From contig JAPPHT010000071.1 in NCBI GenBank assembly GCA_028874795.1, positions 1 to 41,065 of the forward strand: DNA of 41,065 bases. The letters run 5' to 3'. The notes beneath the pieces were generated by a model. It did not search any database, was not told the DNA's origin, and saw only the letters and a list, made by a program, of their open reading frames with translations. Shown piece by piece: positions 3,078-13,990 of this stretch. The stretch comes from Chloroflexota bacterium (lineage in GTDB: Bacteria > Chloroflexota > Dehalococcoidia > Lucifugimonadales > Australimonadaceae). Within the stretch, counting starts at the first letter, position 1, and every line of letters begins with the position of its first letter. The translations under genes and the position numbers were made by a program.

Positions 3078-3667
3078 GTGAGGTCGCCGCGCGTGCGTTC
3101 GAGGACGCCGCGGAGCTGGTCGGTCGTGCGGCGGAGGCCGGAGGTGAGGGCGTCCGGAAAGTCCATGACGACGAGGATGTTGTAGACGTCGTCCATGTAG
3201 CGCATGAGCTCCTCGGCGCGGGAGTCGTCATCGCGGCGGAGGGAGTCGAGGATGTAGCGCCGCAGTTCGCTCGCGGCCTCGGCCAGGCCGTTCAGGTAGG
3301 ACGGCGTTTCAACGCCGATGTCCGCAGGGAGCGGGAGTTCCGTGCGCGCGATGAAGGCGAGCACTGCGCACGCCTCCGCATACTCCTTCTGAGCGTCCTG
3401 GGTGTAGCCGGTGAAGTAGAGGTCCGGGTGACCCTCGAGGGTCTGCTGGGTCTCGCGCACGAGGGCGTCCGCCGCCGCGATGAGCTGGCGCGCCTCCTCA
3501 AGCTCGTTCCGGTGGATGGCGCGTATGGCGTTGGCCGAGGTCCGCACGACCTCCCGGGAAACGCGGATCGCCTGCTCACGCCGTTCGTGCTTGGCGCGGA
3601 ACTCGTCGAGTGAACGGGCGGCTATCTCGTCTATGCGGGCCTGGGTGCTGCCGGTTGCGTCGTCCAT
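3020..3667 (-). CDS. Translin-family protein
   Basis: The protein has 215 residues and is all-helical by composition. It carries translin/TRAX signatures in order: AIRVSREVVRTSANAIRAIH (33-52), the block YTQDAQKEYAEACAVLAF, a YLNGLAEAASELRRYILDSL stretch, a DFPDAL motif, and GLRRTTDQLRGVLERTRGDL near the end. Translins form ring-shaped oligomers that bind single-stranded nucleic acid, and TRAX subunits are RNases using carboxylates. The KEYAEA acidic pair is present here, but nuclease activity cannot be judged from sequence alone. Bacterial members are less studied than eukaryotic ones. Its 3' end is duplicated at 1239-1295 and a two-gene cassette now separates it from hppA, which was probably its direct neighbour before. 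Confidence 0.8.
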   Translation of the reverse strand: MDDATGSTQARIDEIAARSLDEFRAKHERREQAIRVSREVVRTSANAIRAIHRNELEEARQLIAAADALVRETQQTLEGHPDLYFTGYTQDAQKEYAEACAVLAFIARTELPLPADIGVETPSYLNGLAEAASELRRYILDSLRRDDDSRAEELMRYMDDVYNILVVMDFPDALTSGLRRTTDQLRGVLERTRGDLTMTMRQRRLERLLSERPGT

Positions 3668-3757
3668 GCGGCATAGCCTAGCAGACAGGAGAACGGGGGC
3701 GAGGTTGCGCGCTGAAGCGCGGGCCTCCGCAGGACGGCCGGGCTGATTGTGCGGCGT

Positions 3758-3785
3758 TTCACTTACGCTCCTGCTGTGCTATGCT
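3758..3785 (+). promoter_or_regulatory. Probable promoter of the nuo operon (extended -10)
   Basis: TTCACT (3758-3763) and TATGCT (3780-3785) are 16 nt apart, with TGC directly before the -10, giving an extended -10. It lies about 70 nt upstream of nuoB in the divergent gap between translin and nuoB (3668-3852), which is too short for another gene such as nuoA. Confidence 0.45.
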
Positions 3786-3852
3786 CGCGCTCGTGGTGAC
3801 TCTCAGTTCCGGCGGGGTTTGACCCTGTCGCGGAGGAGTCTTCGAGCAGGCC

Positions 3853-4527
3853 ATGGTCAACCCAAACGAGCATGCGCCGTTATCCGTGCCTTCTCTCCTG
3901 ACAGGAGCAGAGGAGCGCGGCGCGGTCTACGGACAGACGATGCCCGGTTGGGACGTCGACCGCATCGAAGGCGAGGCCGTCGAGCAGTTGAAGTGGAGCG
4001 CGCAGGAAGCGTTCCCCGACCCCGCGATCCAGGTGCCGGAAGATATCGCGAGCAACGTGGCGGTGACGTCCGTGGACGCGTTGCTCAACTGGGGCCGCCG
4101 TTCGGCGGTCTGGCCGGTGGCGTTCGGGCTCGCGTGCTGCGTGTTCGAGATGATCGCCTCGGCGATGTCGCGGTTCGACCTCGCTCGGTTCGGCATGGAG
4201 GCGATGCGAGCGACGCCCCGCCAGGCGGACCTGCTCATCGTGTCGGGCACGCTCACGTGGAAGATGGCGCCCGCGGTGCGGCGCATCTACGACCAGATGG
4301 CGGAGCCGAAGTGGGTCATCGCGATGGGTGTCTGCGCGACCAGCGGCGGCCCGTACTACCAGGGCTACAGCGTCGTGCCCGGTGTGAACCACATCGTGCC
4401 GGTGGACGTCTACGTGCCGGGATGCCCTCCCCGCCCTGACGCCCTGCTCTACGGCATCATGCAACTGCACGAGAAGATCAAGCGGTACAGCGTGGGGAGC
4501 GACGCCGCAGGAGTGGACCGCGCATGA
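3853..4527 (+). CDS. nuoB: NADH-quinone oxidoreductase subunit B
   Basis: This peripheral-arm subunit carries the terminal [4Fe-4S] cluster N2 next to the quinone site. All four ligands are visible: the tandem Cys pair C95-C96 in [11 protein letters not shown]161 in MGVCATSGG, and C191 in VPGCPPRPD. At 224 residues it has about 50 extra N-terminal residues compared with common NuoB proteins. An internal ATG at 3940 (MPGWDVDR) would shorten it. GGAGGAG at 3832-3838 is 14 nt from the chosen ATG, somewhat far. It is the first gene of the operon here: no nuoA precedes it. Its 3' end overlaps nuoC by 4 nt. Confidence 0.96.
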
Positions 4528-5000
4528 CGACCGCGACGGCAGGCAGCGCGCTCGCCGAGTCGCTGCGCTTTCCGTTCCCGGACGCCGTGGTCGAGTCGGA
4601 CGAGAGCGCGGTATGGGTGGAGCCGAGCGCGATAGCAGATGTGTGCGCGTTCCTCCGCGATGACCCCGCGCACGACTACAAGATGCTGGGGTCGCTCACG
4701 GCGGTGGACTACGTCGAATACTTCGAGGTGGTCTACCACCTCACGTCCCTCAGCAGGAACGCGACCGCCATCCTGAAGGCCCGGGTGTACGGGCGCGACG
4801 ACGTCTCGCTGCCGAGCGTCACCGGCGTGTGGCGCGGCGCGACGCTCCAGGAGCGAGAGGCCTGGGACCTGATGGGCGTGGGCTTCGACGGCCACCCCAA
4901 CCTCAAGCGCATCCTCACGTGGGAGGGGTTCCAGGGGCACCCGCTGCGGCGCGACTATCTGGAGCCGCCACTCCCGTACTCGTGGCCGCAGGGGGGCTGA
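4524..5000 (+). CDS. nuoC: NADH-quinone oxidoreductase subunit C
   Basis: This 158-residue peripheral-arm subunit (30-kDa family) docks against NuoD near the quinone chamber. The family signature is clear in the C-terminal third: [20 protein letters not shown] followed by a GHPLRRDY block. The ATG overlaps the nuoB stop (ATGA), so translation is likely coupled. It is separate from nuoD, unlike the fused nuoCD of enterobacteria. Confidence 0.95.
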
Positions 5001-5002
5001 CG

Positions 5003-6109
5003 ATGACGATGCGCACCGAGCCGGTCGTCGTCAACATGGGGCCGCACCACCCCAGCACCCACGGCGTGTTCCGCATGAAGCTTACGTTCGACGGCGAGAA
5101 CATCCTCGAAGCGGAGCCGGTCATCGGTTACCTGCACCGGGGCACGGAGAAGCTGGCGGAGGAGCGGCAGTACACCCAGGTCATCACGCTCACGGACCGG
5201 CTGGACTACGTCGCGTCGATGACGAACAACCAGGCGTACGTGCTGTCGTGCGAGCGGCTGGTGGGCATCGAACCGCCGGACCGGGGGAAGTACCTGCGCG
5301 TCATCGCGGCGGAGTTGCAGCGCATCGCGAGCCATCTCATCGGAGTGGGCTTCTTCCTGCAGGAGTTGGGCGTGTTCGGCGGAACGGCGCTGATGTACGC
5401 ATTCCGCGAACGCGAGCGCATCCTGGACATGTTCGAGATGCTCTGCGGCGCACGCATCACGCTCACGTACATGCGCATCGGAGGCGTCCTGCAGGACGCA
5501 CCGGAGGAGTTCTGGCCCGCGCTGCGCTCCTTTCTGAACGACATGCCGGGGTATGCCGACGAGTTGCAGGCGCTGGTGTTCGACAGCGAGATCGTGCGGA
5601 GCCGGACCGTCGGCGTCGCGCCGGTCTCGGCGGAGGACGCCGTCGCGGCGTCGTTCACGGGCCCCATCCTGCGCGCGTCCGGTGTCGCGTGGGACTGGCG
5701 CAAGGCAGCGCCCTACGACGCGTACGACCGCGTGGAGTTCGACGTGCCGACGTGCGAGGGCGGGGACAACTACGACCGGTTCTGGGTGCGGATGCTCGAG
5801 GTACGGCAGTCGCTCCGCATCATCGAGCAGTGCTGCGAGCAGATCGAGCCGGGGCCGGTGCGGGCGACCATGGCCATGCTGTTCCGCCCCCCGCCGGGCG
5901 AGGCCTACGTGCCCATCGAGGCGCCCAAGGGAGAGCTGGGGTTCTACCTGGTGAGCGACGGCACGATAGCCCCGTACCGCTGCCACGTCCGCTCCCCTTC
6001 CTTCATGAGCCTGACGCTGTTCAGGGAGATGCTGGTGGGATGGAAACTGGCGGACGCGATCGTCACACTCGGCAGCCTCGACTTCAACATGGGTGAGGTT
6101 GACCGCTGA
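5003..6109 (+). CDS. nuoD: NADH-quinone oxidoreductase subunit D
   Basis: This 368-residue 49-kDa subunit forms the quinone-binding cavity with NuoB. Signatures: NMGPHHPSTHGVFRMKL at the N-terminus, EKLAEERQYTQ, the ERERILDMFE region, the late quinone-site block VRSPSFMSL, and the C-terminal end MGEVDR. The frame stays open upstream to 4829 but overlaps nuoC, and the canonical N-terminus begins at the ATG 2 nt after the nuoC stop. It ends with a 1-nt overlap onto nuoH. Confidence 0.96.
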   Translation: MTMRTEPVVVNMGPHHPSTHGVFRMKLTFDGENILEAEPVIGYLHRGTEKLAEERQYTQVITLTDRLDYVASMTNNQAYVLSCERLVGIEPPDRGKYLRVIAAELQRIASHLIGVGFFLQELGVFGGTALMYAFRERERILDMFEMLCGARITLTYMRIGGVLQDAPEEFWPALRSFLNDMPGYADELQALVFDSEIVRSRTVGVAPVSAEDAVAASFTGPILRASGVAWDWRKAAPYDAYDRVEFDVPTCEGGDNYDRFWVRMLEVRQSLRIIEQCCEQIEPGPVRATMAMLFRPPPGEAYVPIEAPKGELGFYLVSDGTIAPYRCHVRSPSFMSLTLFREMLVGWKLADAIVTLGSLDFNMGEVDR

Positions 6110-7281
6110 TGGGCGAAACGCTCGCAGGGAACGTCATCTACCGGAACGTCTACCAGTTCGTGCAGGACCTGCTGGGCGAGGAGTGGTCGTGGGTCGCATA
6201 CGCGGCGGCTGGGATGGCGATCATCCTGCTGGTCACCAACGCCGTCATGGCCATCGGGACGGTGTACACCTGGTTCGAGCGCAGGCTGCTCGGCCGCTTC
6301 CAGGGGCGATTGGGGCCGAACCGCGCCGGGCCGTTCGGCGTGCTCCAACCGATAGCCGACGCCATCAAACTGATCACGAAAGAAGACATCATCGCGGTCG
6401 GCGCCGACCGCATCGTGTTCACGCTCGCGCCCGTCGTCATGCTCGCGCCAACGCTGCTCGTGCTGGCGGTCATCCCGTTCGGCGCGGGGTCATGGGTCGC
6501 GGACCTGAACGTGGCGGTGCTGTACATCGCGGCGGTGAGCGGCATCTCGACGATCGCGGTCATGATGGCGGGGTACGCCTCGCCCAACAGCTTCTCGCTG
6601 TTCGGGAGCATGCGGGCTGTAGCGATGCTGGTGAGCTACGAGGTCCCGCTGGTGATGGCGCTGCTGGGCGTCACGGTGCTGGCGCAGTCCATGTCCCTCG
6701 TCGACGTGGTGGAGGCGCAGGCGCTGCCGTTTCTGCTCGTGACGCCGCTGGGAGCGCTCATCTTCCTCGCGGCTGTGTCGGCGGAGCTGAACCGCGCGCC
6801 GTTCGACGTGACGGAGGCGGAGTCCGAGCTGGTCTCCGGGTACATGACTGAGTACAGCGGCATGAAGTACGGCGTGTTCATGCTGGCGGAGTTCACGAAC
6901 ACCGTCGTGGCAGGCGCCATCTTCGCCGCGCTCTTCCTGCAGGGCTGGAAGTGGCCGGTCCTGCCGTCGCACGTGTGGTTCCTGCTCAAGGTGGCGGGGT
7001 TCGTGTTCGTCGCGGTCTGGGTGCGCGCCACGCTGCCGCGATACCGGCTCGACCAGATACTCGCGGTTGCGTGGAAGTACCTCTTCCCCCTGAGCCTGCT
7101 CAACGTGCTGCTGCTCGCGGCGGAGGTCATCGTCTGGCCGGAGCCCGGTGCGGCGGAGCTGGGCATCATGTCGGCGATCAACTGGGCCGTCACGATACCG
7201 GCGGCCGTGCTCTGGTCAAAGGTCGTATCGTTGCGCACTGCGCCGCCCATGGCAGCGGCGTTGTCGACGGAGGGTCGCTGA
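6109..7281 (+). CDS. nuoH: NADH-quinone oxidoreductase subunit H
   Basis: This membrane subunit of 390 residues links the peripheral arm to the proton-pumping arm and forms part of the quinone channel. Signatures: TWFERRLLGRFQGRLGPNRA near residue 48, the acidic quinone-channel loop AELNRAPFDVTEAESELVSG, and GMKYGVFMLAEF. About eight hydrophobic helices are seen. The ATG overlaps the nuoD stop by 1 nt and the gene ends with a 1-nt overlap onto nuoI. The N-terminus is about 30 residues longer than typical. Confidence 0.95.
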   Translation: MGETLAGNVIYRNVYQFVQDLLGEEWSWVAYAAAGMAIILLVTNAVMAIGTVYTWFERRLLGRFQGRLGPNRAGPFGVLQPIADAIKLITKEDIIAVGADRIVFTLAPVVMLAPTLLVLAVIPFGAGSWVADLNVAVLYIAAVSGISTIAVMMAGYASPNSFSLFGSMRAVAMLVSYEVPLVMALLGVTVLAQSMSLVDVVEAQALPFLLVTPLGALIFLAAVSAELNRAPFDVTEAESELVSGYMTEYSGMKYGVFMLAEFTNTVVAGAIFAALFLQGWKWPVLPSHVWFLLKVAGFVFVAVWVRATLPRYRLDQILAVAWKYLFPLSLLNVLLLAAEVIVWPEPGAAELGIMSAINWAVTIPAAVLWSKVVSLRTAPPMAAALSTEGR

Positions 7282-7874
7282 TGTACGGCGAAGGCATCCT
7301 GCGCGGGCTGGGCGTGACGCTCCGCAACCTCGTGCGGCGCCCGTTCACCATCCAGTACCCCGAGGCGCGGATCCCGCAGCATCCCCGCTTCCGGGGGCAG
7401 GAGTTCACGTGGTACGAGCAGAGGTGCACCGGCTGCGCGAGCTGCGCGAAGTACTGTCCGCTCGGCATCATCCGCATCGTCACCGATCCTGACGGCGGTA
7501 ACGAGCAGGACGGCGGCAGCTACAAGGTGGACGTATTCGACATCGACCAGGCCCGCTGCATGTACTGCGGGTTGTGTGTGGAGGCGTGCCCCTACGACGC
7601 ACTGCACATGGGCTCCGGCTTCGAGGCGGCCCGCTACCGCAGAGCGGACCTCGTGATCGACATCGACACGCTCAAGGAACGGGAGAAGCACCCGAGCACC
7701 TGGTTCCGGCCGCAGTTGGAACGTGAGAAGTCAGACCCGCACCACGACGCGCCCCAGGAGTGGGAGAGCGTCGGACGCGAGCCCTTCCTGTGGCATCCCA
7801 AGCGTCCCGGCCAGATGCCGGAGGAGATGGACCACCGCTCCAGCGCCTCGGGTGAGTACGGAGGCGAGCGTTAG
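7281..7874 (+). CDS. nuoI: NADH-quinone oxidoreductase subunit I (2x[4Fe-4S])
   Basis: This 197-residue protein carries two ferredoxin-type [4Fe-4S] clusters that pass electrons to NuoB. Both ligand sets are complete: CTGCASCAKYCP (C49, C52, C55, C59) and CMYCGLCVEACP (C93, C96, C99, C103). The C-terminal 60 residues are polar and acidic/basic, ending HRSSASGEYGGER. The frame is open upstream inside nuoH, but the ATG at 7281 gives the canonical N-terminus. In complexes without NuoEFG this is a plausible entry point for ferredoxin electrons (inference). Confidence 0.95.
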   Translation: MYGEGILRGLGVTLRNLVRRPFTIQYPEARIPQHPRFRGQEFTWYEQRCTGCASCAKYCPLGIIRIVTDPDGGNEQDGGSYKVDVFDIDQARCMYCGLCVEACPYDALHMGSGFEAARYRRADLVIDIDTLKEREKHPSTWFRPQLEREKSDPHHDAPQEWESVGREPFLWHPKRPGQMPEEMDHRSSASGEYGGER

Positions 7875-7876
7875 CC

Positions 7877-8404
7877 GTGGCGTTCGACAACCTCTTCTCC
7901 GAGATCGTGTTCTGGGCGCTGGCGGTGGTCACCATCGGGTCGGCTGCGCTGGTGGTGCACCTCCGCAGCATCTTCCGCGCTGCGCTGATGCTCGTGGTGA
8001 GCTTCCTGGGCATCGCGGGGATCTTCGCGATGGTGAACGCGGAGTTCCTCGCCGTCGTACAGGTGCTGGTCTACGGCGGCGGCATCGCGGTCCTGGTGAT
8101 ATTCGCAGTGATGATGACGCGCGACGTGGACACGGGGAACCGCTCGACGGCCGTGCAACCCGTGGCGCTCGTGATGGGCGTTGCGCTTCTGGCCGCGCTC
8201 GCGTACAGCATCGTGCAGGCGGAGTGGGCGCTGCTGCCCGACTCGCTACCGGCGCCCATCGCGACCGTGTTCGTAGAGACCCCGACGCAACTGGGACGGC
8301 TGCTCCTGAGCGACTACGTGCTGGCGTTCGAGGTGGCGGGTGTGCTGCTGCTGGCAGCGGTTATCGGGGCACTCTCGCTCGTGCGGGAGCGGCGCGATGC
8401 TTGA
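7877..8404 (+). CDS. nuoJ: NADH-quinone oxidoreductase subunit J
   Basis: This 175-residue membrane subunit has five hydrophobic helices. The third contains VLVYGGGIAVLVIFAVMM, the pi-bulge helix typical of NuoJ. The GTG start lies 2 nt after the nuoI stop. The last 8 nt overlap nuoK. Confidence 0.93.
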   Translation: MAFDNLFSEIVFWALAVVTIGSAALVVHLRSIFRAALMLVVSFLGIAGIFAMVNAEFLAVVQVLVYGGGIAVLVIFAVMMTRDVDTGNRSTAVQPVALVMGVALLAALAYSIVQAEWALLPDSLPAPIATVFVETPTQLGRLLLSDYVLAFEVAGVLLLAAVIGALSLVRERRDA

Positions 8405-8741
8405 GCGGCTGCTCATCATCTCGGCGATCCTGTTCTGCATCGGGCTCTACGGGGTGCTGTCGCGCAGGCACATGATCGCGGTGCTCATGTCCGTAGAGCT
8501 CATGTTCAACGCGGTGAACGTGGCGCTGGTCGCGTTCTCGCGCTACACCGTTCCGGCGGTGAATCGGCTGTCCGGCTCGCACGTGGGCATGGAGCGTTTC
8601 GTGCTGGAGGGCCAGACGCTGGCGGTGTTCGTCATCGTGGTCGCGGCGGCGGAGGTGGCGCTGGGCCTGGCGCTCATCATCGCGCTGGCCCGCAGACGCG
8701 ACACGGTCCATATCTCAGACCTCAATACGCTGCGGCGTTAG
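8397..8741 (+). CDS. nuoK: NADH-quinone oxidoreductase subunit K
   Basis: This 114-residue, three-helix membrane subunit carries the conserved proton-path glutamates: VLMSVELMFNAVN in helix 2 and VVAAAEVALGLALIIAL in helix 3. It is slightly longer than the usual 100 residues because of a loop (RLSGSHVGMERFVLEG) between helices 2 and 3. The ATG lies inside the end of nuoJ (8-nt overlap), so the two are translationally coupled. Confidence 0.93.
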   Translation: MLERLLIISAILFCIGLYGVLSRRHMIAVLMSVELMFNAVNVALVAFSRYTVPAVNRLSGSHVGMERFVLEGQTLAVFVIVVAAAEVALGLALIIALARRRDTVHISDLNTLRR

Positions 8742-8751
8742 CGGGACCTGC

Positions 8752-8946
8752 ATGTGGGTTGACTACAAGAGAGCACCGAACCTGATGCTCGCCGAGATGT
8801 GGAAGGAGATCCTCGAGGGCGAGGGTCTGCCCGTCCGCCTGCTGCCGGAAGGCGGCCTGCTGGAGTACAGCGAGACGTCGGCGTTCCGCATCATGGTGCC
8901 ACGGGGCCGCGAGCACGTTGCGGACGAGATCCTGAGGAAGCTGTAG
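8752..8946 (+). CDS. Small DUF2007-like protein inside the nuo operon
   Basis: This 64-residue soluble protein lies 10 nt after nuoK and 3 nt before nuoL. The sequence (LMLAEMWKEILEGEGLPVRL, then SAFRIMVPRGREHVADEIL) follows the beta-alpha-beta pattern of DUF2007, a PII-like 'putative signal transducing protein' family. In that family a residue string near an N-terminal Asn/Glu and the LP.R...G hallmark recur. It is not a standard complex I subunit. Tight spacing on both sides means it is made with the complex, so an assembly or regulatory role is possible, but this is inference. Family assignment is moderate. Confidence 0.7.
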   Translation: MWVDYKRAPNLMLAEMWKEILEGEGLPVRLLPEGGLLEYSETSAFRIMVPRGREHVADEILRKL

Positions 8947-8949
8947 GCG

Positions 8950-10959
8950 ATGCTCCCGGAAGCAGCAGCGTGGCTCATCATCGGCCTGCCGCTCCTGGCG
9001 GGGGTGTTCAGCATCGCCGTGCTCAGGCCGTGGCGCCGCTCGCTCTGGCGGTACGCCGGCCATGTGGGGATCGCCGGCACGGGCGCTGCGTTCGTGCTGA
9101 GCCTCATCGCCGTCAACGGCGCGATGGGCAACGGCGACGCGGGCTACGAACCGCATGCCTGGTTCGCTGTCGGTGCGCTCGGAGCGCAGGACGGCTTCGA
9201 GATGACGGTGGGCATCTTCCTCGACCCGCTGTCCGCCATCATGGCGGCGGTCGTTTCGGGCGTCAGCATGGTCGTGCAGGTGTTCTCACTGGGCTACATG
9301 CGCAAGGAATCCGACGACGCGAACGGCGAGTGGAGCGACTACCCGCGCTACTTCACGTACATGTCGCTGTTCACCGCCTCGATGCTGGGGCTGGTGCTGG
9401 CGTACAACCTCATCCAACTGTTCGTGTTCTGGGAGCTGGTGGGGCTCTTCTCCTACCTGCTCATCGGTTTCTGGTACCACCGCCCGGCGGCGGCGGCGGC
9501 GGCGAAGAAGGCGTTCATCGTTACGAGGATCGGCGATTTCGGGTTCATGCTCGGCATCCTCTACCTGTTCCTGAACCGGGGCGAGTTCACGGCCCTGGGG
9601 CTGAACCCGTTCGAGATTCCGGCCATCCTCGACGCCGCACCGATGCTCTCCGCAGGCGTGGCGACGTGGGTTGCCCTGGGGCTGTTCGCGGGCGCGGCAG
9701 GCAAGTCGGCGCAGTTCCCGCTGCATACGTGGCTGCCGGACGCGATGGAGGGTCCGACGCCGGTCAGTTCGCTGATCCACGCGGCCACCATGGTCGCCGC
9801 GGGCGTATTCCTCGTGGCGCGGCTGTTCGGGCTGTTCGAGGAGAGCGCGGCGGCGATGAACACGGTCGCTATCATCGGAGGCTTCACTGCAGTGTTCGCC
9901 GCGGCGATGGGCCTCGCAGCGAACGACATCAAGCGCGTGCTGGCATTCTCGACGGTCAGCCAGCTCGGCTACATGTTCCTCGCGCTGGGGGTGGGCGCGC
10001 CGGGCGTAGCGATGTTCCACCTGTTCAACCACGCGTTCTTCAAGTGCCTGCTCTTCCTGGGAGCGGGGTCGGTACACCACTCGGTACATACGTTCGACAT
10101 GCGGTACATGGGCGGCATCCGGCGGTGGATGCCCATCACCTACCTGACGACGCTCGTCGGCGGGTTGAGCCTCGCGGGGATATTCCCGCTCGCAGGCTTC
10201 TGGAGCAAGGACGAGATCCTGACCACGGCGTGGAGCGGGTCGCACGCGGCGAACAGCGGAGTGTCGCAGCTCGTGTTCTGGCTGGCGCTCGCCGCGGCGT
10301 TCATGACCGCGTTCTACGTCTTCCGGCTCATCATCATGGCGTTCCACGACGACTTCCGTGGCGGCATCGACTCGGTGCCGCACGAGGAGCGCATCCCGGA
10401 CGAAGCGCACCACCACGTGCACCGGCATGAGTCGCCGCTCGTGATGAAGCTGCCGCTCCTCGTGCTGGCCGTGTTCGCTGTGGGCTCGGGGTTCGTGGCG
10501 AATTCGCTCGTCGATCTCGGACCTGTCCCCGCGCACTGGTTCTCGCACCTGCTGCACGAGGACGCGCCGAAGTTCAACATCGCCATCGCGCTCACGTCGA
10601 CGCTGGTTGCGGTCGCCGGGATCGGTCTCGCGGTGCTGGTCTACGGAACGCGGACCGTGTCGTTCGACGGCCTCGGACGCCTCTGGCGGTTCGTGCACCG
10701 GCTGCTGGTGCAGCGGTTCTACATGGACGCGCTCTACGAAGACCTCATCGTCCGCCGTGCGCTCTACCGCGGGCTGTTCCTCGTCTCCGACTGGTTCGAC
10801 CGCCGGATCGTGGATGGGGTGGCCGACCTCGCGGGCTGGCTGGGGCGCAACAGCGGACGCGCCATCGCCCAGCTCCAGACGGGCCACATCCAGGTGTACG
10901 GCGTGGGCGTCTCCATGGGCGCCGCGGTGATCCTCATCTTCTACCTGATGCAACGCTGA
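8950..10959 (+). CDS. nuoL: NADH-quinone oxidoreductase subunit L
   Basis: This distal antiporter-like proton-pumping subunit has 669 residues. Signatures: YFTYMSLFTASMLGLVLAYN and FWELVGLFSYLLIGFWYHRP (conserved Glu of helix 5), GKSAQFPLHTWLPDAMEGPT (Lys of helix 7 and the broken helix), FSTVSQLGYMFLALG, and FWSKDEILT. A His-rich loop (EAHHHVHRHES) follows about residue 478, then the long C-terminal segment expected for the lateral helix. It starts 3 nt after the DUF2007-like gene and ends 4 nt before nuoM. Confidence 0.96.
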   Translation: MLPEAAAWLIIGLPLLAGVFSIAVLRPWRRSLWRYAGHVGIAGTGAAFVLSLIAVNGAMGNGDAGYEPHAWFAVGALGAQDGFEMTVGIFLDPLSAIMAAVVSGVSMVVQVFSLGYMRKESDDANGEWSDYPRYFTYMSLFTASMLGLVLAYNLIQLFVFWELVGLFSYLLIGFWYHRPAAAAAAKKAFIVTRIGDFGFMLGILYLFLNRGEFTALGLNPFEIPAILDAAPMLSAGVATWVALGLFAGAAGKSAQFPLHTWLPDAMEGPTPVSSLIHAATMVAAGVFLVARLFGLFEESAAAMNTVAIIGGFTAVFAAAMGLAANDIKRVLAFSTVSQLGYMFLALGVGAPGVAMFHLFNHAFFKCLLFLGAGSVHHSVHTFDMRYMGGIRRWMPITYLTTLVGGLSLAGIFPLAGFWSKDEILTTAWSGSHAANSGVSQLVFWLALAAAFMTAFYVFRLIIMAFHDDFRGGIDSVPHEERIPDEAHHHVHRHESPLVMKLPLLVLAVFAVGSGFVANSLVDLGPVPAHWFSHLLHEDAPKFNIAIALTSTLVAVAGIGLAVLVYGTRTVSFDGLGRLWRFVHRLLVQRFYMDALYEDLIVRRALYRGLFLVSDWFDRRIVDGVADLAGWLGRNSGRAIAQLQTGHIQVYGVGVSMGAAVILIFYLMQR

Positions 10960-10963
10960 GCAG

Positions 10964-12475
10964 ATGCTGACCGCAATCACATTCGTACCGATGATCGGCG
11001 CCGCGCTGGCTCTGGCAGTGCGCGGCTCCGCGCGGACGACGCGCCTCATCGCGCTCACAACCGTGCTCGCGGAGCTTGGGCTGACCATCTCCATGTACGT
11101 GATCTTCAACGCGCAGGGGGACACCTATCAGTTCGTGCAGCGCGCGCCGTGGGTCTCCGCGTTCGGCATCGAGTTCCTGATGGGCGTGGACGGCCTGAGC
11201 GCGCCGCTGGTCCTGCTGAACGGCATCCTCGGTGTGGCCGCCGTGCTGGTGTCGTGGCGGGTGGAAACGCGCGTCCGCGAGTACTTCATGTGGCTGCTGT
11301 TGCTGCAGGGCGCGGTCATGGGCGTCTTCGCGTCGCTGGACATGATCCTGTTCTTCATCTTCTGGGAACTGGAACTCGTGCCGATGTTCTTCCTCATCTC
11401 CATCTGGGGCACGGGGCGCAAAGACTACTCGGCGATGAAGTTCCTGCTGTTCACCTTCCTCGGTTCCGCGTTCATGTTCGCGGCCATCCTCGCGCTCTAC
11501 TTCTCGTTCCCGGCCGGCGAGCGCACGTTCGACATGACGGCGCTCATCCACAAGGACCTGACCAACCTCATCGTGCCGTCGTCGCTGGTGTTCAGCGGCT
11601 TCCTCGTGGCGTTCGCGGTGAAGCTCCCCATCGTGCCCCTCCACACGTGGCTGCCCGACGCCCATACGGACGCGCCCACGGCGGTCAGCGTGATGCTGGC
11701 GGGCGTGCTGCTGAAGATGGGCGGCTACGGCCTGTTGCGCATCAATGCCGGGATGTTCCCGGACGAGCTCGCGGCGGCAGCGCCGCTGCTGGCGGTACTC
11801 GCGGTGGTCAACGTGCTGTACGGGGCATTCATCGTGATGCGCCAGACCGACCTGAAGCGCCTCGTCGCATACAGCAGCGTGAGCCACATGGGCTTCGTCG
11901 TGCTGGGCCTCGCATCGGTCGGCGCGGGGACGGCGCAGCTGGACGGCACGGGGCTGAACGGGGCGGCGATGCAGCTGTTCACCCACGGCACGATTACGGG
12001 ACTGTTGTTCGTGGTCGTCGGTCTGGTGTACGACCGTGCGCACACGCGGCACATAGCGGACATGGGCGGGCTCTCAGGGCGCATGCCGCTCATCGCCGTC
12101 GGCTTCATGATCGCGGGGCTGGCGTCGCTCGGCCTGCCGACGACGAGCGGGTTCGTCGCCGAGATCATGGTGTTCCTCGGTACGTTCCCGGCGTACGGCC
12201 TGGCGACGGCGCTGTCCGCGTTCGGTGTCGTGCTTGCCGCGGGCTACATCCTGTGGACCGCACAGCGCACGATGTTCGGCCCGCCTCTGGAGCGATGGGC
12301 GCACCTCGAGGATGCAACGCGCGTGGACGTCGCCGCGATGGGCGTGCTCATCGTGCCCATCTTCGTGTTCGGGGTCTACCCCGCGCTGCTGACGGACGTG
12401 TTCGACGCCGGCATCGCGCCCATCATCGCGTCCTTCGCCGAGGGCGCGTCCCTTGTCGCGGGACAGGGAGGGTAG
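10964..12475 (+). CDS. nuoM: NADH-quinone oxidoreductase subunit M
   Basis: This 503-residue antiporter-like pump subunit has FFIFWELELVPMFFLISIWG (helix 5 Glu), KLPIVPLHTWLPDAHTDAPT with following KMGGYGLLR, and YSSVSHMGFVVLGLAS. About 14 hydrophobic helices are seen. It lies between nuoL (4-nt gap) and nuoN (3-nt gap). Confidence 0.96.
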   Translation: MLTAITFVPMIGAALALAVRGSARTTRLIALTTVLAELGLTISMYVIFNAQGDTYQFVQRAPWVSAFGIEFLMGVDGLSAPLVLLNGILGVAAVLVSWRVETRVREYFMWLLLLQGAVMGVFASLDMILFFIFWELELVPMFFLISIWGTGRKDYSAMKFLLFTFLGSAFMFAAILALYFSFPAGERTFDMTALIHKDLTNLIVPSSLVFSGFLVAFAVKLPIVPLHTWLPDAHTDAPTAVSVMLAGVLLKMGGYGLLRINAGMFPDELAAAAPLLAVLAVVNVLYGAFIVMRQTDLKRLVAYSSVSHMGFVVLGLASVGAGTAQLDGTGLNGAAMQLFTHGTITGLLFVVVGLVYDRAHTRHIADMGGLSGRMPLIAVGFMIAGLASLGLPTTSGFVAEIMVFLGTFPAYGLATALSAFGVVLAAGYILWTAQRTMFGPPLERWAHLEDATRVDVAAMGVLIVPIFVFGVYPALLTDVFDAGIAPIIASFAEGASLVAGQGG

Positions 12476-12478
12476 CGC

Positions 12479-13990
12479 GTGGGCATCACAGCCAGAGACC
12501 TCTTCCTCATCGCGCCGGAGCTTGCGCTCACGGTGGGGGCGACCGTCGTGGTGCTCTCAGGCCTCGTCTCCCGGCAACGGCAGTTGACGCTCGTGCTCGC
12601 GCTGCTCGGCCTCGCTGTTACGTTCGCGTTCGCCATCGCCCTCTGGGACAACGTACACGCGAACGGGGCGCAGTCCGCTTTCAACGACTCGCTCATCGTC
12701 GACAAGTTCGCGCTCTACATCAAGTTCCTCGTCGCCGGGACCGCGGCTCTGGTGCTCATCGCGAGTTCGGAGTACGCGGAACGCTTCCGCCCGTACGGAT
12801 CGGAGTTCACGGGCCTGGTGCTCTTCTCGGCGGCCGGGCTGATGCTGCTGGCGGCGGCAGCCGACCTCATCACCATCTACGTCTCGCTGGAGCTCGCGAC
12901 GCTGCCGGTGGTGGCGCTGGCGGCGTTCGTCAGGACGCGGATAGCGCCCATCGAGGCGGGCGTGAAGTATCTGCTCCTCTCCGCCGTGTCGTCGGCGTTC
13001 CTCCTGTACGGGTTCGCGTTCCTGTACGGCGCATCGGGAACGATGCAGGTCGTGGGCGGCAGCAGCGGGGCGCCAACCATCGCGCAGGCGTTGGGCGAAG
13101 GCAGCCCGGACGTGCCGTTCGGAGGCCTCGCGATCATGGCCGGGGCCATCCTCGCGACTGCCGGTTTCGGTTTCAAGCTGTCCATGGTGCCATTCCAGAT
13201 GTGGACACCGGACGTGTACGAGGGCGCACCCACGCCGGTGGGCGCGTTCCTGGCCACAGCCAGCAAGGCCGCGGCGTTCGCAGTGGTGCTGCGGCTGTTC
13301 TACGAGGCGCTGGGCGGCTCGTCGGCCGATTGGTCGACGCTCTTTGCGGCGCTCGCGGCCATCACGATGACGATAGGGAACCTGGTCGCGATAGTGCAGA
13401 GCAACGTGAAGCGCCTGCTTGGCTACAGCGCCATCGCACACGCGGGGTACCTGCTCATCGGCGTGGCGGCCGTGACGGCGCACGGACAGGAGACGCAGGA
13501 CGCGGCCGGCATCTCGAGCGTTCTCTTCTACCTGGCCGGCTACGCGGCGATGACGCTCGCTGCATTCTTCGCCGTCATCGTTCTGACGCAGCGCAGCGGC
13601 GACGAGCGCATCGAGGCGATGGCGGGCATGGGGAAACGTGCCCCGCTCGCGGCGCTCGCGCTGGCGGTCGCGCTGCTGGGTCTCACGGGCATCCCGCCGA
13701 CGGTAGGGTTCATGGGCAAACTCTTCCTGTTCAACGCCGCCGTGAACTCGGGGCTGGTCTGGCTCGCGGTCGTCGGCGCCGTCAACTCGGTCGTGTCCGC
13801 GTATTACTACGTGGGCATCATCCGCACGATGTACCTTCGCGAGCCTGCAGGAGACGCCTCTCCCGTCGCCGCTGCATTCTCCGGGAGGCTCACGCTGTGG
13901 ATAACGGTGGCGGCGATACTCGTGCTCGGGTTCTGGCCGGGCGGGCTGCTCGAGGTCGCACGCACCGCCGCGAGCGGGCTGGTCTCCTGA
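12479..13990 (+). CDS. nuoN: NADH-quinone oxidoreductase subunit N
   Basis: This third antiporter-like subunit has 503 residues and a GTG start 3 nt after the nuoM stop. Signatures: TIYVSLELATLPVVALAAF (helix 5 Glu), GFKLSMVPFQMWTPDVYEGA, FLATASKAAAF, and YSAIAHAGYLLIG. It is the last gene of the operon. The next 45 nt to the methyltransferase hold no obvious terminator hairpin. Confidence 0.95.
   Translation: MGITARDLFLIAPELALTVGATVVVLSGLVSRQRQLTLVLALLGLAVTFAFAIALWDNVHANGAQSAFNDSLIVDKFALYIKFLVAGTAALVLIASSEYAERFRPYGSEFTGLVLFSAAGLMLLAAAADLITIYVSLELATLPVVALAAFVRTRIAPIEAGVKYLLLSAVSSAFLLYGFAFLYGASGTMQVVGGSSGAPTIAQALGEGSPDVPFGGLAIMAGAILATAGFGFKLSMVPFQMWTPDVYEGAPTPVGAFLATASKAAAFAVVLRLFYEALGGSSADWSTLFAALAAITMTIGNLVAIVQSNVKRLLGYSAIAHAGYLLIGVAAVTAHGQETQDAAGISSVLFYLAGYAAMTLAAFFAVIVLTQRSGDERIEAMAGMGKRAPLAALALAVALLGLTGIPPTVGFMGKLFLFNAAVNSGLVWLAVVGAVNSVVSAYYYVGIIRTMYLREPAGDASPVAAAFSGRLTLWITVAAILVLGFWPGGLLEVARTAASGLVS

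Follow-up and report, generated by a model that had tools for sequence, protein, structure and literature searches.

A conserved DUF2007-like protein encoded between nuoK and nuoL is a candidate accessory component of one complex I isoform in Dehalococcoidia

Bacterial and photosynthetic complex I can carry accessory subunits, among them Nqo15 and Nqo16 of Thermus and NdhS of cyanobacteria. The class Dehalococcoidia, which includes the marine SAR202 group, is abundant and largely uncultured. A missing N module has been reported in Dehalococcoidia in the accessible part of PMC5736913. The accessible part of PMC11238625 gives the operon of the 11-subunit enzyme in Desulfitobacterium as nuoABCDHIJKLMN and leaves open what donates electrons to it. 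A soluble protein acting on the enzyme is also on record: in the excerpt of PMC9274095, the orphan response regulator Rv3143 modulates Nuo in Mycobacterium tuberculosis. We found no DUF2007-like protein linked to complex I in the accessible portions of the open-access literature, a body that leaves most subscription journals outside the search. DUF2007 is mentioned there in 4 papers, none of which concerns complex I as judged by title and opening of the abstract.

Here we analyzed a stretch of 41,065 nucleotides (hereafter the window) from contig JAPPHT010000071.1 of a Chloroflexota bacterium of the class Dehalococcoidia. It is SAR202-like, its nearest named records being MAGs labelled SAR202 cluster, Dehalococcoidia or Chloroflexi. 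A first-pass annotation had described a small DUF2007-like protein of 64 residues, separated from its neighbors by gaps of 10 and 3 nt, and the reading frame is indeed there, with a similarity to DUF2007 that is real but weak. We refer to this 64-amino-acid open reading frame, found between nuoK and nuoL, as X. The features of the locus are as follows.

3853..4527, + strand: nuoB; Pfam Oxidored_q6 match at residues 95-205
4524..5000, + strand: nuoC; TIGR01961 over cut-off
4829..6109, + strand: nuoD; PRK06075 over cut-off; true start probably downstream of 4829
6109..7281, + strand: nuoH; NCBIfam PRK06076.1-2 over cut-off
7284..7874 (start approximate, within ORF 6951-7874), + strand: nuoI; TIGR01971 match at ORF residues 119-240, just below cut-off
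7877..8404, + strand: nuoJ; 175 aa, overlapping nuoK; Pfam Oxidored_q3, E = 1.8e-34
8397..8741, + strand: nuoK; 114 aa; Pfam Oxidored_q2, E = 4.2e-29, and NCBIfam NuoK
8752..8946, + strand: X; 64 aa, ATG to TAG, soluble, DUF2007-like
8950..10959, + strand: nuoL; 669 aa; TIGR01974 and PRK06590 over cut-off
10964..12475, + strand: nuoM; TIGR01972 over cut-off
12479..13990, + strand: nuoN; TIGR01770 over cut-off

The gene order is therefore nuoB-C-D-H-I-J-K-X-L-M-N, with 10 nt between the end of nuoK and X, and 3 nt between X and the start of nuoL. The subunit order had been called otherwise canonical; X does interrupt the series between nuoK and nuoL, but nuoA was not found by tblastn across the window, and there is no nuoE, nuoF or nuoG in the window either. 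The segment ahead of nuoB (3300-3853) is likewise without nuoA. NuoA-like genes of the same genome lie on contig C84, within a second nuo operon, and on contig C90, where the 3.3 kb locus has no other Nuo match. The only Complex1_51K match in this genome is on contig C43. We also noted that ORF 3853-4527 (nuoB) has approximately 94 N-terminal residues ahead of the Pfam match, either an extension or a sign that the start is further downstream.

A match to X is present in 57 of 59 relatives, and comparison with the four closest ones gave dN values of 0.007-0.014 against dS values of 0.23-0.44; X is thus under strong purifying selection and, on these two counts together, far beyond chance. It is also better conserved than its Nuo neighbors: over 130 loci, the mean identity to the window was 72.2% for X, 57.4% for NuoL, 55.2% for NuoK and 48.9% for NuoJ, and X exceeded NuoK in 128 of these 130, with X compared over its full length, the Nuo proteins over their blast match, and some genomes counted twice as members of two overlapping collections. 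No relatives of X were found in the viral contigs searched, and no fusion of X to NuoK or NuoL was recognised among 235 X loci. At one of these loci (L219) the X frame continues to 120 aa, but no partner was recognised in it.

The position of X is fixed within Dehalococcoidia. The first-pass annotation had named absence from the nuo operons of close relatives as the observation that would count against it, and the outcome favored X: in an order-level sample of 30 loci, one of them that of the window, nuoK precedes X in all 30 and nuoL follows in 29, the thirtieth running into a contig end after nuoK. Among genomes with names (the best 80 of 226 relatives), X is flanked by both nuoK and nuoL in 78, and by one of the two at a contig end in the other 2. 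X is also present in a cultured SAR202 isolate, Lucifugimonas marina JH1073 (L062). The class sample comprised 132 X- or DUF2007-like loci, a part of the matches in the class, of which 123 scored above 41 bits and 9 at or below. Both neighbors were present at 115 of the 123, one neighbor at a contig end at 6, and neither at 2, such that nuoK and/or nuoL lie on the expected side of X at 121 of 123; none of the 9 low-scoring loci is near nuoK or nuoL. The two loci with neither neighbor are L225 and L227. L225 stops where its contig does, and over the final 226 bases it shares 97% identity with the end of L221, a locus of the same genome; it is therefore probably an assembly duplicate. L227 (genome G185) is a true exception that counts against an accessory role: its X-like gene scores 76 bits and has no Nuo neighbor, but lies with S-adenosylmethionine synthetase-like and metal-hydrolase-like genes (named by eye). 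Across the 235 loci, which are partly redundant, nuoK and X are separated by a median of 10 nt (n = 225; 6 overlaps, 31 gaps above 100 nt), and the X-nuoL gap a median of 3 nt (n = 220; 40 overlaps, 15 gaps above 100 nt). Gaps as short as these are typical of co-translated genes. Because its position is fixed across the class, X probably assists complex I, or forms part of it, in a way that has so far escaped notice.

The association concerns one complex I isoform. A number of genomes in the class have, in addition, a second nuo operon for 11 subunits, and an HMM search found no X in 10 operons of this second type (L304-L311, L283 and L315, the last from the window's own genome). In 9 of the 10, nuoK and nuoL are adjacent. 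The exception, L304, has HEPN-like and nucleotidyltransferase-like ORFs between them (7970-8788), which by eye resemble a toxin-antitoxin pair. Since these second operons, the own genome's included, are without X, X is specific to one isoform, and not all complex I enzymes require it. A gene locked to its enzyme's operon, as expected of an accessory subunit, is what we observed, both in the 121 of 123 class loci and in the 0 of 10 second-type operons. Twenty further regions of the class that are without X were fetched, and in 19 of them NuoK is directly beside NuoL; the twentieth, L179, where matches are distant only (NuoK 25%), probably represents an antiporter-type operon of another kind. 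A NuoL tree was built from 129 rows, of which 111 carry X (54 families) and 18 do not; by a quick method, the presence or absence of X changes on it at least 3 times, against a mean of 17.2 when shuffled. The X-less rows form a group of families f58 and f84, a group of f53, f99 and f107, and a single long branch, L177. This distribution suggests that X has been kept across 54 families and lost about three times. Complex I of the X-bearing type can therefore work without X, which counts against an accessory role.

We next consider the family and the fold. The PF09413 (DUF2007) profile matches X with E = 1.5e-4 and 22.3 bits, residues 7-63 aligning to positions 6-64 of 66; because this is below the gathering cut-off of 25.7, X is filed as DUF2007-like and not as a member. 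Three relatives scored 17.5, 20.4 and 12.5 bits and two had no match, an ordinary paralog from the same class (L270) passed the cut-off with 28.5 bits, and 42 of 104 subfamily members matched at E <= 0.01. In the last helix we recognised a motif, [RK]xHVxxExxRK, whose residues are H55 (96%), V56 (95%), E59 (97%), R62 (92%) and K63 (94%) among 196 nuo-linked X proteins. The 21 unlinked DUF2007 hits are without these helix residues, the aligned part stopping before the helix in many of them. Judged by sequence, the X proteins thus form a DUF2007-like subfamily of their own, marked by the motif in the C-terminal helix. Helix geometry places H55, E59 and R62 on one face, away from V56, I60 and L61, and this face is for that reason a putative outward binding face.

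AlphaFold2 predicted the structure of X with a pLDDT of 96.9 and a pTM of 0.82, from an alignment of 104 sequences (the window protein and 103 of 136 non-redundant ones, the rest, including relatives outside the class, being left out). The elements are E2-8, H11-23, E29-32, E45-50 and H54-63, i.e. a beta-alpha-beta-beta-alpha fold like that of 2HFV (RPA1041), which we take to be a DUF2007 protein. VIA-align gave Z 6.5 over 63 residues (rmsd 3.0) for this pair, and Foldseek a TM of 0.67 with E = 0.49; no Foldseek match to the model reached E <= 0.001. Since this fold is common, the resemblance lends weak support to DUF2007 kinship. The best shape match by VIA-align was the ring domain of EscJ/PrgK (Z 8.7), whose kinship we do not accept, as only a simple arrangement is shared. 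PII-like and ACT-like proteins scored Z 4.5-5.4 (approximately 4.5 and 5, respectively). Taken at the level of the model, these values are what a widespread small fold would give, and they say nothing about function. A PDB profile search with the X alignment returned no match, hence no solved complex I shows X, which also counts against an accessory role. The same search with L277 read on the plus strand returned no match; as the DUF2007 gene of that locus may be on the other strand, this second result carries little weight.

X was also compared with the means of electron input. Of 197 class genomes, only G219 and G065 have a canonical NuoG that scores over the NCBIfam cut-off, thus X-bearing and X-less enzymes alike are mostly without NuoG, and a simple rule tying X to the NADH module was rejected. 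PF01512 was matched in 183 of 197 class genomes and is too broad a marker of the NADH module, because it also marks hydrogenases and formate dehydrogenases. COX1 was matched in 123 of 197; most aerobic-looking members of the class seem to run complex I without the standard NADH module. A link between X and aerobic life is not a rule either, with exceptions both ways: no COX1 match came from f53, f58 or f84, the X-less genomes G168 and G080 do match, and the X-bearing G070, G089, G092, G093, G109 and G120 are listed without a COX1 match. At 9 of the 20 X-less loci fetched, the NuoI frame contains an in-frame insert of approximately 470 aa, a GltD-like FAD/NAD(P)H oxidoreductase domain (named by eye).

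L166 (452-2500), L167-L170, L172, L174 and L180, family f58: NuoI with GltD-like insert
L176, family f99: NuoI with GltD-like insert

All nine are X-less. Among X-bearing loci with any NuoI match, NuoI is uninterrupted in 146 of 162, the other 16 not having been resolved one by one, and the GltD insert was seen in none. The insert is possibly a built-in electron-input module of 11-subunit complex I. Its coincidence with the absence of X covers two lineages at most, and is thus only a hint of a role for X in electron input.

The first-pass annotation had proposed a check for the same position across Chloroflexota. The position is kept class-wide in Dehalococcoidia but not phylum-wide. A sample of 201 genomes from the phylum gave matches in 31, some of them members of the class, and a position between nuoK and nuoL across all Chloroflexota was rejected, because it was seen at 0 of the 22 loci fetched and grouped as outside the class, 3 of which (L150-L152) are weak hits from f53, a class family. 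The best seven relatives grouped outside the class (L285-L291) are in cassettes with NuoE, NuoF or FdhA/NuoG genes. In L286-L291 the X-like gene is followed by a gene for an AAA_26-DRTGG-like protein, then by NuoE-like and/or NuoF-like genes, with FdhA/NuoG after these in some; in L285, where the nuo operon is full, it has FdhA/NuoG on one side and NuoA on the other. These neighbors were confirmed by Pfam in L285 and L286, and in L291 for NuoF and FdhA/NuoG, and were otherwise named by eye. The cassette relatives are without part of the C-terminal helix motif, which counts against an accessory role. As far as gene neighborhoods go, the cassettes constitute a second, independent link to complex I-type modules, and they point to the electron-input side. 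The earlier proposal that X is made with the membrane arm is therefore retained in part: a soluble protein tied to complex I stands, but the emphasis on the membrane arm does not, with the closest outside relatives beside NuoE, NuoF and FdhA/NuoG.

From the genomic context and the model, we think it rather likely that X is a soluble, cytoplasmic-side accessory protein that binds this complex I isoform, as a stable subunit or as a docking or assembly factor. In Dehalococcoidia, X would serve a single isoform of the complex I that has 11 subunits and no NuoEFG, and would be translated together with nuoK and nuoL. It would bind the complex, most likely via the conserved outer face of the C-terminal helix (H55, E59, R62 and K63), and might remain there as a permanent twelfth subunit or, on the hydrophilic side that receives the electrons, help in assembly or docking. 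Three other explanations were weighed. That X is a spurious ORF might be argued from its length of only 64 aa and the DUF2007 match under the cut-off; this is refuted by a dN far below dS, the presence in 57 of 59 relatives and the confident fold, and we give it virtually no credence. A regulatory role, in which X is a small PII/ACT-like protein that senses a metabolite by binding it and adjusts the activity of complex I or the expression of nuo, with no structural part in the enzyme, is the least implausible of the three but unlikely. It draws on weak fold matches to SbtB (Foldseek), PstA, CutA and CASTOR1 (Z 4.5-5.4), on the Pfam description of DUF2007 as a putative prokaryotic signal transducing protein, and on the AAA_26-DRTGG protein beside the X-like gene in other Chloroflexota, which could also be regulatory. 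Such Z values are, however, common among small folds of this kind; the conserved surface residues, as inferred from sequence and model, are on a helix face with no evident ligand pocket, and a constant partner is suggested by three features of X: its place among genes for structural subunits, its very high conservation and its restriction to one isoform.

It is also conceivable that X is a passenger, acting elsewhere in the cell and staying in the operon for expression. Ordinary DUF2007 relatives do occur elsewhere in these genomes (the 9 class loci that score no more than 41 bits, all away from nuoK and nuoL), and L227 is X-like without Nuo neighbors, but the constancy of its position in the 54 families of the NuoL tree, the absence from second nuo operons and the separate association with NuoE/NuoF cassettes in relatives outside Dehalococcoidia make this distinctly improbable. 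Returning to the accessory protein, a bolder version, which we hold to be speculative and rather unlikely, is that X founds a family of complex I adaptors that join an electron-input module to the enzyme. In Dehalococcoidia, X would then be the twelfth component of the NuoEFG-less enzyme and help an unknown donor to dock, relatives elsewhere in Chloroflexota would serve NuoE-NuoF(-FdhA/NuoG) modules, and X would have been lost where input turned covalent, i.e. where NuoI became fused to the GltD-like flavoprotein.

Kept next to nuoK and nuoL in most of Dehalococcoidia and missing from the second isoform in the same genomes, X provides a concrete handle on the electron-donor question, and it offers a biochemical context, open to testing, for a DUF2007-like protein. 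Compared with DUF2007 proper (PF09413), X has the same length, similarity over most of the protein and a fold comparable with 2HFV, but differs in its sub-cut-off score, its own helix motif and its fixed nuo context. Like Nqo15, Nqo16 and NdhS, X is small, soluble and lineage-specific; those proteins attach to a conserved core, as X may do, and differ from X in fold and family. Rv3143 resembles X, in the role proposed here, as a soluble protein acting on complex I but is, in the excerpt of PMC9274095, a response regulator. The X-bearing operon is of the same type as that of the 11-subunit complex I, in keeping with the near absence of NuoG from the class; compared with the Desulfitobacterium order nuoABCDHIJKLMN, as given in the accessible part of PMC11238625, it has X as an extra gene between K and L.
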